64,000 nucleotides of DNA. It comes from Alloalcanivorax dieselolei B5 (lineage in GTDB: Bacteria; Pseudomonadota; Gammaproteobacteria; Pseudomonadales; Alcanivoracaceae). Location of the stretch: assembly GCF_000300005.1 (NCBI RefSeq), contig NC_018691.1:2976001-3040000 (forward strand), written 5' to 3'. Position numbers and translations under genes: made by a program. Shown here piece by piece: positions 27,963-46,713 of this stretch (the stretch's first letter is position 1; the number at the start of each line of letters is the position of its first letter). The notes under the pieces are model-generated. The model was given only the letters and a program-made list of their open reading frames with translations. It was not told where the DNA came from and ran no database searches.

Positions 27963-28682
27963 CTACCATTGCATGTCCGGCATCGCCTGAAAGGCACCGC
28001 GCAATGCCTGGGACCAGGCCTCGCCCAGCGCCCGGAAACCCTGGTGATGCTCATCCACATCATAATGAAGATGGTCGTCAAAGCTGTCGCGGGGATACTT
28101 GAGAACATCCAGAGGCAAGCCCACGGACAGATTGGAACGAAGGGTGGAATCGATACTCAGCAAGGCGCACTTGATGCCATCGTCCAGGGAGGTGCGGTAT
28201 TCCACCACCCGATCGATAATCGGCTTGCCGTACTTGGTCTCGCCGATCTGAAAGTACGGCGTGTCCGCCGTGCATTCGATGAAATTACCTTCCGGGTAAA
28301 CCAGAAACAGCCGCGGCGCTTCACCACGAATCTGCCCCCCGACGATGAAGCTGCTGCCGAAATCCACCGACCCCTGCGTCTGGCCGGCGTCGCGCTGACG
28401 CACTTCACGGCTGGTGGCACCGACAATGGCCGCCACATCGTACAGCGAGCCGACGCCGTTGAGATTGGGCCGGTCGCTGTCCAGACGCATGCGCAACAGG
28501 CTGACCACGCTCTGAGTGGTGGCCAGGTTGCCGGCGCTGAGCAGAACCACCAGACGCTCCCCGGACACCGGGAAGGTGTGCAGTTTGCGAAACGTGGCGA
28601 TCTGATCCACGCCGGCGTTGGTCCGCGAGTCCGCGGCGAACACCAGCCCTTGTTCCAGGCGCATGGCGACGCAATAGGTCAT
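27963..28682 (-). CDS. Anbu-type proteasome-like peptidase
   Basis: A 239-residue Ntn-hydrolase of the Anbu family, related to HslV and proteasome beta subunits. The ATG at 28682 is chosen because removal of the initiator Met exposes Thr as the N-terminal nucleophile (MTYCVAMRLEQGLVFAADS). Asp17 and Lys32 of the processed chain match the proteasome catalytic pattern. Known Anbu proteins form open helical or ring assemblies, and their physiological substrate is unknown. It is last in a four-gene cluster with ATP-grasp, alpha-E and transglutaminase genes, 16 bases behind the latter. No unfoldase ATPase gene is next to it. Confidence 0.92.
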   Translation of the reverse strand: MTYCVAMRLEQGLVFAADSRTNAGVDQIATFRKLHTFPVSGERLVVLLSAGNLATTQSVVSLLRMRLDSDRPNLNGVGSLYDVAAIVGATSREVRQRDAGQTQGSVDFGSSFIVGGQIRGEAPRLFLVYPEGNFIECTADTPYFQIGETKYGKPIIDRVVEYRTSLDDGIKCALLSIDSTLRSNLSVGLPLDVLKYPRDSFDDHLHYDVDEHHQGFRALGEAWSQALRGAFQAMPDMQW

Positions 28683-28698
28683 CGGTTTCTCCGTGCGG

Positions 28699-29496
28699 TC
28701 ACTGGTCCCCGGTGCCGGTCTGCCGCACCAGGGCCGCCGCGCGCAGGGATTCCACGCCACCGCCGTAACGGACGCCGCGTACCGGGCAGGCATCCAGATA
28801 GTCGAAGCCCACCGCCAGTTTCAGATGGCGTCTCGGACGGCGGGTCTGGTTGGTCACGTCAAACGTGTGCCAGCGCTCATCGAACCAGACTTCGGCCCAG
28901 GCATGGCTGGCGACGTGCTCGGAATCATCGCTGTAAAGATAGCCGCTGACGTAACGGGCGGGAATCCCCAAGGCCCGGCAGCAGGACAAAAACACATGGG
29001 TATGATCCTGGCACACCCCTTTCCTTAACCGATAAGCCTCGGCGGCGGTGCTGGATACATCGGTGATGCCGGGCGTAAACGGCATTCGCGACAGGATGGT
29101 TTCGCTCAGCCCCTCAAGATTGGTCAAGGTCCCGGCGGTACGCTGATGACTCCGGGCCAGTTCATGGAGCAACGAGTCAGGGCGGGTAAACGGAGAATAG
29201 CGGCAGTAAACCAGAGGGGAGATCCGGGTGTCGTCATCCTCACGGTCCTCACCATCGATTTCCACTTCGCCGGTGGCGGTGAGGTGTATGGCCTCGTGGG
29301 GTTGGTCCAGGGTCAGCACGTGCAGGATATTACCAAAGCCGTCGGAGGCCTCGCTGGCCGGCTCCGGCATGTCCAGATGCCAGTGCAGAATGCGCTGCCG
29401 CGCCGACGGACGCGGCGTCAGCCGCAAATACTGCGTGCTGTGCAGCACTTGCTCGGAATAGCGGTATTCGGTGCTGTGTCGAATCGACAGTTTCAT
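28699..29496 (-). CDS. Transglutaminase-like cysteine peptidase family protein
   Basis: A 265-residue cytosolic protein. The N-terminal 80-90 residues match the bacterial transglutaminase N-terminal region (IRHSTEYRYSEQVLHSTQYLRLTPR). The core domain has the full triad: Cys in KGVCQDHTHVFL, His in SHAWAEVWF and Asp in HTFDVTNQ. Such proteins are predicted peptidases or amide transferases. The start overlaps the alpha-E stop by four bases (ATGA), so it is coupled to the ATP-grasp/alpha-E pair. In the amidoligase systems described for this gene set it may cleave or transfer the peptide made by the ATP-grasp enzyme; this is inference. Confidence 0.92.
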   Translation of the reverse strand: MKLSIRHSTEYRYSEQVLHSTQYLRLTPRPSARQRILHWHLDMPEPASEASDGFGNILHVLTLDQPHEAIHLTATGEVEIDGEDREDDDTRISPLVYCRYSPFTRPDSLLHELARSHQRTAGTLTNLEGLSETILSRMPFTPGITDVSSTAAEAYRLRKGVCQDHTHVFLSCCRALGIPARYVSGYLYSDDSEHVASHAWAEVWFDERWHTFDVTNQTRRPRRHLKLAVGFDYLDACPVRGVRYGGGVESLRAAALVRQTGTGDQ

Positions 29497-30446
29497 ACGA
29501 CCTCCAGATATTCCTCGCGGATGGTATCCGCCAGCTCATTGATACGACGCAGAAAGTCCGTCAGGTAATCGTGCAAGCCGGTGTCCAGCACATGTTCCAG
29601 ATCACCGTACTGCAGCCGCGCGAACTGCACCGCCGCCAAGCGCTTGGCGGTCTGCCCGGCGCGCCCCTCGATCGCCGGCAGCAACTCGCACAGCATTTGC
29701 ATGCACGAGCGTAGCGAGCGTGGCACCTCGGCGCCGAGAACCAGCAGTTCCGCTACCCGGTCGGCGCTAATAGCCTCGCTGTAAAGCTCGCGATAGGATT
29801 CATACGCCCCCACCGAATGCAGCAAGGCGTGCCAGCGATAGAAGTCCATGGCGTCACCGCCGGAAGGAACGCCGTAGAGACTCCCGTAGAGAGTGCCGAT
29901 CTGGTATTTCACATCGAGGATACGGGCCGTGTTATCGGCCCGCTCGATAAAGGTACCAATGCGCAGAAAACGGAAGGCGTCATTGCGCATGATGGTGCCG
30001 TAAGTGGCGCCACGGAACAGGTGGGAACGTTTTTTCACCCAATCAAAAAAAGCGCTGGCACCGTATTGATCCAGGCCACCACGGTGAATCTCCTTCAACT
30101 CCAGCCAGGTACTGTTGATGCTTTCCCACATCTCGGCGGTGATCTTGCCGCGCACCGCGTGGCCGTTCTCCCGCGCCAGACGCAGGCAGTTGAAAATGCT
30201 GCCGGGGTTGTCCTGATCCAGGGTGAAGAAATGCAGTACCTCGCGCACCTGGACGTCATCGTACCGGCTCATATACAGCTCATGCGTGCCCGAGATCATC
30301 AACGGCGCCATCATCTCATCGCGGGGATTGGCGACGAACGGCATCATCGACAGATTCCAGGCCACGTCGAGCATGCGCGCGGTGTTCTCGGCCCGCTCAA
30401 CCAGACGGGACAGCCAGTACAGGTCGGACGCGGTGCGACTCAACAT
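29493..30446 (-). CDS. Alpha-E domain protein (DUF403)
   Basis: A 317-residue all-helical protein of the alpha-E family (PF04168), whose members nearly always accompany circularly permuted ATP-grasp enzymes. Family features are the opening MLSRTASDLYWLSRLVERAENTARMLD and the central RIGTFIERADNTARILDVKY, which repeats the same ERA-NTAR pattern and suggests an internal duplication. The function is not established; a structural or substrate-presenting role has been proposed. The start overlaps the ATP-grasp gene by seven bases and the end overlaps the transglutaminase gene by four. Confidence 0.92.
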   Translation of the reverse strand: MLSRTASDLYWLSRLVERAENTARMLDVAWNLSMMPFVANPRDEMMAPLMISGTHELYMSRYDDVQVREVLHFFTLDQDNPGSIFNCLRLARENGHAVRGKITAEMWESINSTWLELKEIHRGGLDQYGASAFFDWVKKRSHLFRGATYGTIMRNDAFRFLRIGTFIERADNTARILDVKYQIGTLYGSLYGVPSGGDAMDFYRWHALLHSVGAYESYRELYSEAISADRVAELLVLGAEVPRSLRSCMQMLCELLPAIEGRAGQTAKRLAAVQFARLQYGDLEHVLDTGLHDYLTDFLRRINELADTIREEYLEVV

Positions 30447-31879
30447 GACGGCGCCCCCACCACCCAGGTGTCCTTGGTGCCGCCCCCTTGGGACGAGTTC
30501 ACCACCAGCGAACCGGCATTCATCGCCACCCGCGTGAGACCGCCGGGCACCATGCGGGTAGTACGGCCGTCACTGAGCACGAATGGGCGCAAGTCGATAT
30601 GCCGGGGCGCGATGCCCTGCTCGACGAAGATCGGGCAGGTGGACAGCGACAGGGTCGGCTGGGCGATGTAATTGTCGGGCCGTGCCCGCAGACGCTGACG
30701 GAAACCCTCGATCTCCTCGCGGCTGGCCGCCGGTCCCACCAGCATGCCGTAACCGCCGGCGCCGTGGACCTCCTTAACCACCAGTTCCGGCAGGTGCTCC
30801 AATACGTACTGGAGGTCCTCCGGACGGCGGCATAGCCGGGTCGGGACGTTTTCCAGAATCGGCTCCTCACCCAGATAGAAGCGGATCATCTCCGGCACAT
30901 AAGGATAAATGGACTTGTCATCGCCGACCCCGGAGCCAATGGCGTTGGCCAGCACCACGTTACCCTGCCGGTACACCGACAGCAGGCCGGGCACCCCCAG
31001 CATGGATTCCGGGTTGAACGCCAGCGGGTCGAGGAAATCGTCATCAATGCGGCGATAGATCACGTCCACCCGTTGCGGCCCGGCGGTGGTGCGCATGTAG
31101 ACGAAGCCATCCTTGACGAACAGATCCGCCCCCTCCACCAATTCGATCCCCATCTGCTGCGCCAGGAAGGCGTGCTCGAAGTAGGCGCTGTTGAAACGCC
31201 CGGGCGTCAGCAGCACCACCGTGGGATAGGCCACGGCACTACTATGCTGCAAGGTATCCAGCAACAGCGATGGATAGTGCTCCACCGGCGCCACCGATTG
31301 CCCGGCGAACAACTCCGGGAACAACCGCATCATCACCCGCCGGTTTTCGATCATATAGCTGACCCCGGACGGGGTACGCAGATTGTCCTCCAGGACGTAC
31401 CAGGTTCCCTCACCGTCACGGATCAGGTCCACGCCGCTGACGTGGCTGTACACCTGATTGGGCAGATCCACGTCCTGCATGCAGGGCTGGTAATGGGCGT
31501 TGCCATAGATCTGATCGGCGGGAATGCGGCCGGCGCGGATAATCTCCTGGCCGTGGTAAATGTCATCGAGGAATTGGTTCAATGCCCTCACCCGCTGGGC
31601 CGTGCCCTGCTCCAGGTGGTGCCATTCCTGTTCAGGAATAATGCGGGGAACCACATCAAAAGGAATCAGCCGCTCCGCGCCACTCTCCTCACCGTAGACA
31701 TTGAAGGTGATGCCGACCCGGTGGAACAACAGCTCGGCTTCCTGACGCTTGCGGTGCAGGAGCTCATTGGACTGCCCCAACAACCAGCCGTGATAACTGG
31801 AATAGTGGGGGCGAACCGCCCCTTCCCTGGCGAACATCTCATCAAAGCCGGACACCGCCGGCGGTGTAATCGACTGCAT
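30440..31879 (-). CDS. Circularly permuted type 2 ATP-grasp protein
   Basis: A 479-residue protein of the CP_ATPgrasp_2 group (formerly DUF404/DUF407), predicted to ligate amino acids or peptides through an acyl-phosphate. Family signatures include RLIPFDVVPRIIPEQEWHHLE near residue 70 and the ATP-grasp LEDNLRTPSGVSYMIENR. GVGDDKSIYPYVPEMIRFYLGEEPIL, VVKEVHGAGGYGMLVGP and a C-terminal DLRPFVLSDGRTTRMVPGGLTRVA also occur. It is the first gene of the ATP-grasp/alpha-E/transglutaminase/Anbu operon. Substrate and product are unknown. Confidence 0.92.
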   Translation of the reverse strand: MQSITPPAVSGFDEMFAREGAVRPHYSSYHGWLLGQSNELLHRKRQEAELLFHRVGITFNVYGEESGAERLIPFDVVPRIIPEQEWHHLEQGTAQRVRALNQFLDDIYHGQEIIRAGRIPADQIYGNAHYQPCMQDVDLPNQVYSHVSGVDLIRDGEGTWYVLEDNLRTPSGVSYMIENRRVMMRLFPELFAGQSVAPVEHYPSLLLDTLQHSSAVAYPTVVLLTPGRFNSAYFEHAFLAQQMGIELVEGADLFVKDGFVYMRTTAGPQRVDVIYRRIDDDFLDPLAFNPESMLGVPGLLSVYRQGNVVLANAIGSGVGDDKSIYPYVPEMIRFYLGEEPILENVPTRLCRRPEDLQYVLEHLPELVVKEVHGAGGYGMLVGPAASREEIEGFRQRLRARPDNYIAQPTLSLSTCPIFVEQGIAPRHIDLRPFVLSDGRTTRMVPGGLTRVAMNAGSLVVNSSQGGGTKDTWVVGAPSC

Positions 31880-32089
31880 GGCGCGTTATTCCCTGTGGCC
31901 CTTTCCCCAACGACGGGGATACCAACAGGCTCAGCAAGGGATATGCCAATTCGGAGACAAAGGATTCAGGGACATCCGCCCCGGCATGGCGCAAGACTGC
32001 GATCCATGCTGAAGCAGGCCGACCTTGAGGCACCAAATCGGGGCACAACAAGGCTTCGCCAGCAGGGCAATGGATTCCCCCGCCCCAAA

Positions 32090-46640: not shown

Positions 46641-46713
46641 GGGAATGTCCCCTTTCACCGTTTCAGCTTGCCAACTGTTGAACAGGGAGAAAGCAAAGCC
46701 CATGCCATGTGCA

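Follow-up and report, generated by a model that had tools for sequence, protein, structure and literature searches.

The stretch analyzed here, 64,000 nucleotides from the genome of Alloalcanivorax dieselolei B5 (hereafter the window), contains a cassette of four genes that all lie on the minus strand in the order ATP-grasp, alpha-E, transglutaminase-like, and Anbu, as judged from open reading frame (ORF) coordinates and Pfam matches. The first gene (31879-30440) encodes a circularly permuted ATP-grasp amidoligase of 479 amino acids (PF14403, 558 bits; PF04174, 497 bits). It is followed by genes for an all-helical, internally duplicated alpha-E protein of 317 amino acids (30446-29493; PF04168, 319 bits), a transglutaminase-fold cysteine protein of 265 amino acids with a Cys162-His198-Asp213 triad (29496-28699; PF08379 and PF01841), and Anbu, a proteasome-family N-terminal nucleophile (Ntn) hydrolase of 239 amino acids, counted from ATG-Thr, with Thr1, Asp17, and Lys32 (28682-27963; PF00227, 42 bits). 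ATP-grasp and alpha-E overlap by 7 bases and alpha-E and transglutaminase by 4 bases, while 16 bases separate the transglutaminase gene from Anbu. All of this, from the families and their order to the two overlaps, is as an initial annotation made from the sequence had described it. None of the four proteins scored above the cut-off of any NCBIfam family. The cassette is almost certainly the published Anbu operon, and our analysis concerns the promoter that seems to govern it and the constancy of its genes among relatives.

A predicted nitrogen-control promoter

A -24/-12 site for sigma-54 (TGGCAT-N5-TTGCT; 31948-31933, minus strand) matches the consensus exactly and begins 69 bases 5' of the ATP-grasp ATG, leaving 53 bases between site and start codon. 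Another 80 bases upstream lies an NtrC-like dyad (TGCCCC-N5-GGTGCC; 32045-32029, minus strand), the window's sole exact match to TGCMCCN5GGTGCM. Over both strands of the 4.93-Mb genome (4,928,223 bases), the exact sigma-54 pattern occurs 22 times, compared with 10 for the reversed pattern, and the dyad core TGCMCCN5GGTGC occurs 17 times, compared with 9 for its reversed control. When coordinates were compared genome-wide, both exact patterns stood in an activating geometry at two genes only, the Anbu operon and a gene of the MSMEG_0572/Sll0783 type. The latter, a nitrogen-starvation gene (sigma-54 site at 3216079-3216094 of the genome, plus strand; locus L278), has its sigma-54 site and NtrC-type dyad arranged much as in the Anbu operon.

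An ORF of 70 or more amino acids begins within 350 bases downstream of 18 of the other 21 exact sigma-54 sites, and 12 of these 18 ORFs were compared with family libraries. Among the 12 are glutamine synthetase (glnA), an allophanate-hydrolase-like amidase, a urea ATP-binding cassette (ABC) transporter binding protein, and an NMT1-like binding protein, along with an ANTAR response regulator, the nitrite reductase NirB, the MSMEG_0572/Sll0783 nitrogen-starvation protein, and sigma-54 itself (rpoN). An amidohydrolase, an amino-acid/urea-type ABC binding protein, a tripartite ATP-independent periplasmic (TRAP) transporter binding protein, and a protein that matches a methylsterol monooxygenase best and looks by eye like a Rieske type complete the set. 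Some of the remaining exact sites fall within long open frames and may be due to chance. The genome encodes both regulators: a full-length NtrC (749 bits against a cut-off of 559) and RpoN, the latter recognized from its N-terminal 240 amino acids (E = 3.6e-72), a fragment that hence stays below the whole-protein cut-off. The window's second exact sigma-54 match (46692-46707, minus strand) lies at the start of the NirB gene (46703-44109, minus strand). Since the ORF as listed begins within that site, NirB probably starts slightly further downstream.

The intergenic gap 5' of the ATP-grasp gene measures 265 bases. Upstream of it lie three electron-transfer-flavoprotein (ETF) genes, and beyond Anbu a resistance-nodulation-division (RND) efflux pair converges from the other side. 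A terminator-like stem (32112-32097, minus strand) separates the ETF alpha gene from the operon and another (27967-27945, minus strand) coincides with the end of Anbu; both come from a consensus scan only, which gave 8 stems in the region and 3.1 in shuffles. Given the upstream stem and the separate neighboring genes, the 265-base gap should carry the operon's own promoter. In agreement with the initial annotation, which had noted the lack of an adjacent unfoldase ATPase gene, no AAA+ ATPase was found among the five flanking genes scanned.

Recurrence of the promoter and published expression data

Recurrence was scored in 85 close loci, consisting of 80 named loci and 5 (among them the window) from a sample of 274 genomes of the class. 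A sigma-54 site was called at 10 or more of 11 specified bases within 150 bases of the inferred start and an NtrC dyad at 10 or more of 12 within 300 bases; the controls were 1700 dinucleotide shuffles and 849 segments drawn at random from these loci. The sigma-54 site was present in 57/85 loci (1.4% of shuffles, 1.2% of random segments) and the dyad in 38/85 (3.1% and 2.6%), while the two together, with a dyad of 9/12 or better starting 30 to 160 bases upstream of the sigma-54 site, were found in 44/85 loci, against 0.1% and 0.8% of the respective controls. At the same threshold of 10, the reversed sigma-54 pattern appeared in none of the 85. Of 54 labels for genus or lineage, 36 included one or more loci with the sigma-54 site. 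Relatedness among the loci means that these counts are not independent, and 19 of the 80 named loci are from Pseudomonas. In a set comprising the window's family and one near relative, all 28 loci had a sigma-54 site of at least 10/11 within 160 bases; the dyad reached 10/12 in 12 loci and at least 9/12 in 24, a level that about a fifth of shuffles also reach. Enrichment over controls was weak in 80 distant gammaproteobacterial loci, with 14 sigma-54 sites, 11 dyads, and 5 loci having both in register. COG3484 is presumably Anbu. In a survey of predicted sigma-54 regulons (PMC12316311), COG3484, which is annotated as a proteasome-type protease, is listed for the alpha-, beta-, and gammaproteobacteria.

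Several published expression data sets are in line with nitrogen control. In Pseudomonas putida, PP_2688 and the Anbu gene PP_2685 changed by +3.99 and +4.44 log2 units on nitrate relative to ammonium (PMC8050072), and PP2685, PP2686, and PP2687 were 11.1-, 6.6-, and 7.1-fold higher in nitrogen- than in carbon-limited chemostats (PMC3325844). Under nitrogen limitation of the wild type, PP_2686-2688 rose 12.6-, 11.0-, and 14.7-fold, with Anbu at 1.12-fold, and the authors assigned PP_2686-2688 to NtrB/NtrC (PMC7801951); papers on the Anbu operon also report that Anbu is upregulated in nitrogen-limited P. putida (PMC5666114, PMC6376114). In Burkholderia cenocepacia H111, I35_5080-5083, which encode ligase-, alpha-E-, and transglutaminase-type proteins, were 6.0- to 9.4-fold lower in an ntrC mutant and are among the common targets of NtrC and sigma-54 (PMC5491218). 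In marine metagenomes, the domains in question correlate with urea domains (PMC3597751). The co-expression expected in the initial annotation is thus largely borne out in P. putida under nitrogen limitation (PMC8050072, PMC7801951, PMC3325844), except that Anbu was flat in the wild type of PMC7801951. Its proposal that the gene overlaps reflect a fixed stoichiometry is not upheld: only 13/85 close loci show the ATP-grasp/alpha-E overlap, and alpha-E and transglutaminase overlap in only 25 of the 61 that have a co-directional transglutaminase match within 1500 bases. Likewise, the P. putida Anbu gene changed 1.12-fold when the others changed 11- to 15-fold (PMC7801951).

Two further observations concern a neighbor of the cassette. 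Three enterobacterial loci (L141, L147, and L191) have a RidA-like gene, recognized by eye, about 630 bases 5' of the ATP-grasp match on the same strand. PP2689, which by its number adjoins the P. putida operon, is a putative endoribonuclease that was up 1.7- and 2.5-fold under limitation (PMC3325844).

Gene content of related loci

The class sample contained 85 alpha-E loci in 79 of its 274 genomes. ATP-grasp was present in these same 79 genomes and adjoined alpha-E at all 85 loci. Anbu was found in 69/274 genomes, 66 with alpha-E and 3 without (two partial matches and one genome that is 78% complete). Its position varied: downstream and co-directional at 8 of the 85 alpha-E loci, upstream and co-directional at 1, on the opposite strand within 10 kb at 40, and on a different contig or beyond 10 kb at 23. 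The genome lacked an Anbu match at the remaining 13 loci, and 13 of the 79 alpha-E genomes had none, absence being defined as no match at E<=1e-10 in a sample with many drafts and metagenome bins. In the window's own family, ATP-grasp and Anbu were both present, adjacent, and co-directional in 27/36 genomes, and both were missing in the other 9. Among 41 named genomes selected for Anbu not adjoining the cassette, whose completeness is not given, Anbu was located elsewhere in 18 and had no match in 23, of which 16 are Pseudomonas; the 19 named Pseudomonas genomes comprise 3 with Anbu beside the cassette and these 16. The idea that all four genes travel together holds for ATP-grasp and alpha-E and only partly for Anbu, and we conclude with good confidence that ligase and alpha-E form the core, with Anbu as an optional member.

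This pattern bears on a tagging function as suggested in the initial annotation after Iyer and colleagues, in which proteins receive a peptide tag from the ligase and are then either freed of it or degraded by the transglutaminase-fold enzyme, Anbu, or both, in loose analogy to the Pup-proteasome. The union of a ligase and two hydrolases in one unit would suit such a cycle, as would the joint presence of ATP-grasp and Anbu in 27 genomes of the window's family and their joint absence from 9, and the presence of alpha-E in 66 of the 69 Anbu genomes of the class sample. However, we consider it rather unlikely, given that Anbu was not found in 13/79 alpha-E genomes of the class sample or in 23 of the 41 named genomes (16 of them Pseudomonas), and that others measured no peptidase activity of Anbu (PMC6376114). 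Nor did a recurrent partner family emerge among ORFs of at least 110 amino acids, although a tag could be smaller than the ORFs in this survey.

That survey for a nearby recurrent partner gene covered 894 such ORFs from 85 loci. The 32 largest clusters were mainly cassette genes, antisense frames, and lineage-specific neighbors, and the idea of such a partner was rejected. The transglutaminase survey used a single query protein, so that a missing match in a locus is not equivalent to absence of the gene. In one member of the window's family (L245, genome G327), Anbu directly follows alpha-E with no transglutaminase match in the stretch covered, an arrangement suggesting that the transglutaminase gene can perhaps also drop out. 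A second ATP-grasp family was seen in several of the sampled genomes, with open frames of about 850 to 900 amino acids and about 35% identity (e.g., G107:C1:1268824-1270191, minus strand). It is probably the fused ATP-grasp/alpha-E form known from the literature.

What happens to the promoter when Anbu moves is informative. Of 19 dispersed Anbu genes or pieces, one was left out for having too little upstream sequence, and none of the other 18 had a sigma-54 site of at least 10 within 150 bases, a single 10/11 match lying at -278. The ligase unit, by comparison, had the site in 24/39 loci with Anbu near and in 30/41 with Anbu not near. Because dispersed Anbu genes are without the site and the ligase unit keeps it, nitrogen control appears to follow the ligase unit, with Anbu sharing it when in the operon. 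These counts do not favor a role in bulk turnover, according to which Anbu is an ATP-independent protease that recycles amino acids during starvation and the other three genes form a separate function on the same promoter: the site is as frequent with no Anbu nearby as with Anbu nearby, and the 18 dispersed Anbu genes or pieces do without it within 150 bases. Amino acid recycling would be compatible with nitrogen control, and Fuchs et al. favor protein degradation on the basis of inhibitor binding and ring shape (PMC5666114). The Anbu proteins of Yersinia, Hyphomicrobium, and Pseudomonas, however, showed no peptidase activity with the substrates tried (PMC6376114), and we regard this explanation as unlikely.

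Structural features of the four proteins

By sequence, the ATP-grasp ligase is close to the solved protein 3N6X (724 bits). An AlphaFold2 model of the ligase (predicted local distance difference test [pLDDT] score, 80; predicted template modeling [pTM] score, 0.85) again retrieved 3N6X as the best Foldseek match (E = 1.6e-63), followed by eukaryotic-type glutathione synthetases at template modeling (TM) scores of about 0.5 to 0.6 and then by the fungal ligase Cp1B, Escherichia coli YgiC/YjfC, and GspS (2io8; E = 3.1e-9; TM score, 0.44). Judged by comparison of the model with solved structures, the 479-amino-acid protein has a glutathione synthetase-like, circularly permuted ATP-grasp fold. Only ATP-grasp families exceed their cut-offs in it, and a fused N-terminal cysteine amidase domain is missing. 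YgiC and YjfC are peptide-spermidine ligases according to the title of a paper cited in PMC12568646, and the product of Cp1B is a small amide (PMC12568646). These fold neighbors form amides from a carboxylate and an amine; in several cases the partners are a peptide and a polyamine. A check of ATP-grasp activity suggested in the initial annotation has in part been provided by others, in that the Yersinia homologue released phosphate from ATP; stable complexes of the operon proteins were not detected in the same study (PMC6376114).

The alpha-E protein yields a confident all-helical model (pLDDT, 92; pTM, 0.90). Its two halves align with each other in a two-sequence comparison (E = 1e-7), each contains the motif ERA(E/D)NTARxLDV, and E17, R18, E168, and R169 are invariant in 77 sequences. 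It had no solved relative by sequence at E<=1 and the model had no solved fold match by Foldseek at E<=0.001 (best E, 0.21).

The catalytic residues noted in the initial annotation were corroborated for both hydrolase-type proteins. In the transglutaminase-like protein, which scores 49 bits against the solved 3ISR, C162 is conserved in 49/50 rows and H198 and D213 in 50/50, in an alignment that excludes matches below 35% identity; for each family, short matches were dropped. Thr1, Asp17, and Lys32 of Anbu are identical in 78/78 aligned rows. Anbu matches the solved designed Anbu 5LOY with 304 bits and four natural ones with 246 to 296 bits, whereas the next match, a 20S alpha subunit, reaches only 23 bits, so that the similarity is to Anbu rather than to HslV or the 20S proteasome. 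A second proteasome-family gene is located elsewhere in the genome (4428713-4429210, plus strand) and is probably HslV.

Discussion

On balance, we lean toward a nitrogen-starvation amide-ligase system with Anbu as an optional hydrolase. In this account, the regulation is fairly well supported, and we infer the substrate and product. Upon nitrogen shortage, phosphorylated NtrC bound at about 32029-32045 would activate sigma-54 polymerase at 31948-31933, so that, to judge from the sites and from published work on homologues, the genes are made together. The ATP-grasp enzyme, a ligase of the glutathione synthetase/glutathionylspermidine synthetase type, would turn a carboxylate into an acyl phosphate and link this to an amine, constantly partnered by alpha-E, as the fold, the invariant residues, and the adjacency at every sampled locus suggest. 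The transglutaminase-fold cysteine enzyme might then cleave or transfer that amide, and Anbu would act as an accessory hydrolase that has been placed elsewhere or lost in many lineages. The likeliest purpose would be the capture or mobilization of nitrogen through a peptide or amine conjugate, and we put forward such conjugate-based salvage as a tentative suggestion that falls short of even odds.

Several points weigh against this account. Both the sigma-54 site and the NtrC dyad are recognized by consensus patterns. The dyad by itself is only twofold over its reversed control in this genome, and an activator other than NtrC could read it. At the threshold used, the sigma-54 site is missing from 28/85 close loci, from 18/54 genus or lineage labels, and from 66/80 distant gammaproteobacterial loci. 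Moreover, a P. putida rpoN mutant still induces PP_2686-2688, 14.2-, 16.0-, and 19.6-fold and hence no less than the wild type (PMC7801951, Table 2), and urtA-D, likewise assigned to NtrB/NtrC, behave in the same way. Induction in P. putida under those conditions thus did not need sigma-54, unless the mutant was leaky or a second promoter exists. The B. cenocepacia cluster I35_5080-5083 includes a second, large transglutaminase gene and no Anbu (PMC5491218) and may belong to a different subtype. Pull-down and co-expression tests by others found no complex of operon proteins (PMC5666114, PMC6376114), and the salvage purpose is deduced solely from the regulation.

The P. putida mutant and the 28 close loci without a site could also be read to mean that the sigma-54 and dyad sites are chance matches, remnants, or a minor input and that nitrogen induction, where seen, proceeds via another promoter. 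We find this very improbable in view of the roughly 50-fold enrichment over shuffles, the presence of the sigma-54 site in 28/28 family-set loci, and the dependence on NtrC and sigma-54 in B. cenocepacia (PMC5491218). The rpoN-mutant data did reduce our confidence. Sigma-54 control of the operon, of which we had been nearly sure, is now considered very likely, and NtrC, previously taken to be the activator with good confidence, is its probable activator.

The four-gene set is also described by Piasecka et al. 2018 (PMC6376114) and Fuchs et al. 2017 (PMC5666114), who trace both the tagging and the peptide-synthesis hypothesis to Iyer et al. (2009) and to Valas and Bourne (2008). The initial annotation rightly pointed to Iyer and colleagues. 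The peptide-ligation and tagging interpretation it offered is neither new nor settled, since it has been published together with null results for peptidase activity and complex formation; its families, residues, gene order, and literature hold, while dispersal of the genes is partly contrary to it and nitrogen control was overlooked. New here are the breadth of the promoter, its presence in this genome, and its behavior when Anbu moves; nitrogen control as such was already known for P. putida. We did not find the breadth of a sigma-54/NtrC promoter across Anbu-type operons described in the literature searched, as far as the portions available extend, and among papers naming both Anbu and NtrC none was on this operon, judged by title. 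Anbu has drawn attention as a possible proteasome ancestor. The promoter, found again at many loci of beta- and gammaproteobacteria, says when to look, that is, in nitrogen starvation, and the gene survey directs attention first to the ligase and alpha-E rather than to Anbu. Together they make a long-standing question about Anbu testable with an ordinary strain of the laboratory.

Comparison with known systems

The operon's promoter is built like those of glnA, nirB, and further nitrogen genes in the genome, a feature of the NtrC/sigma-54 nitrogen regulon; the behavior of the homologues in the P. putida rpoN mutant departs from that regulon (PMC7801951). With the published Anbu operon, the cassette shares the four families, their order, and the catalytic residues, with no difference in gene content. 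A conserved sigma-54/NtrC promoter, in contrast, was not found described in the portions available, although the nitrogen induction in P. putida was.

We also considered a conjugation and deconjugation system induced by nitrogen starvation. In it, ATP-grasp and alpha-E (a new fold serving as carrier or adaptor) would link cellular targets to a short peptide or an amine, which the cysteine enzyme would take off again, and Anbu would be a degradative module gained or lost. That the operon would in this way be a proteobacterial counterpart of Pup is quite unlikely in our estimation. The Pup-proteasome of actinobacteria likewise combines an amidoligase with a relative of the proteasome and plays a part when nitrogen is scarce. 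However, the Pup ligase is glutamine synthetase-like and that of the window is an ATP-grasp enzyme, Anbu is optional, and no unfoldase was present among the five flanking genes scanned.

GspS and YgiC/YjfC belong to the fold class of the window's ATP-grasp protein, and GspS also pairs its ligase with a cysteine hydrolase. They differ in that sequence identity is about 14%, the window's hydrolase is a separate gene of another family, and alpha-E and Anbu have no counterpart in them. The operon is not a GspS, as it lacks the amidase fused to the ligase. By analogy, nonetheless, GspS, with its ligase and opposing cysteine hydrolase, may be the case that comes closest to the operon in logic.

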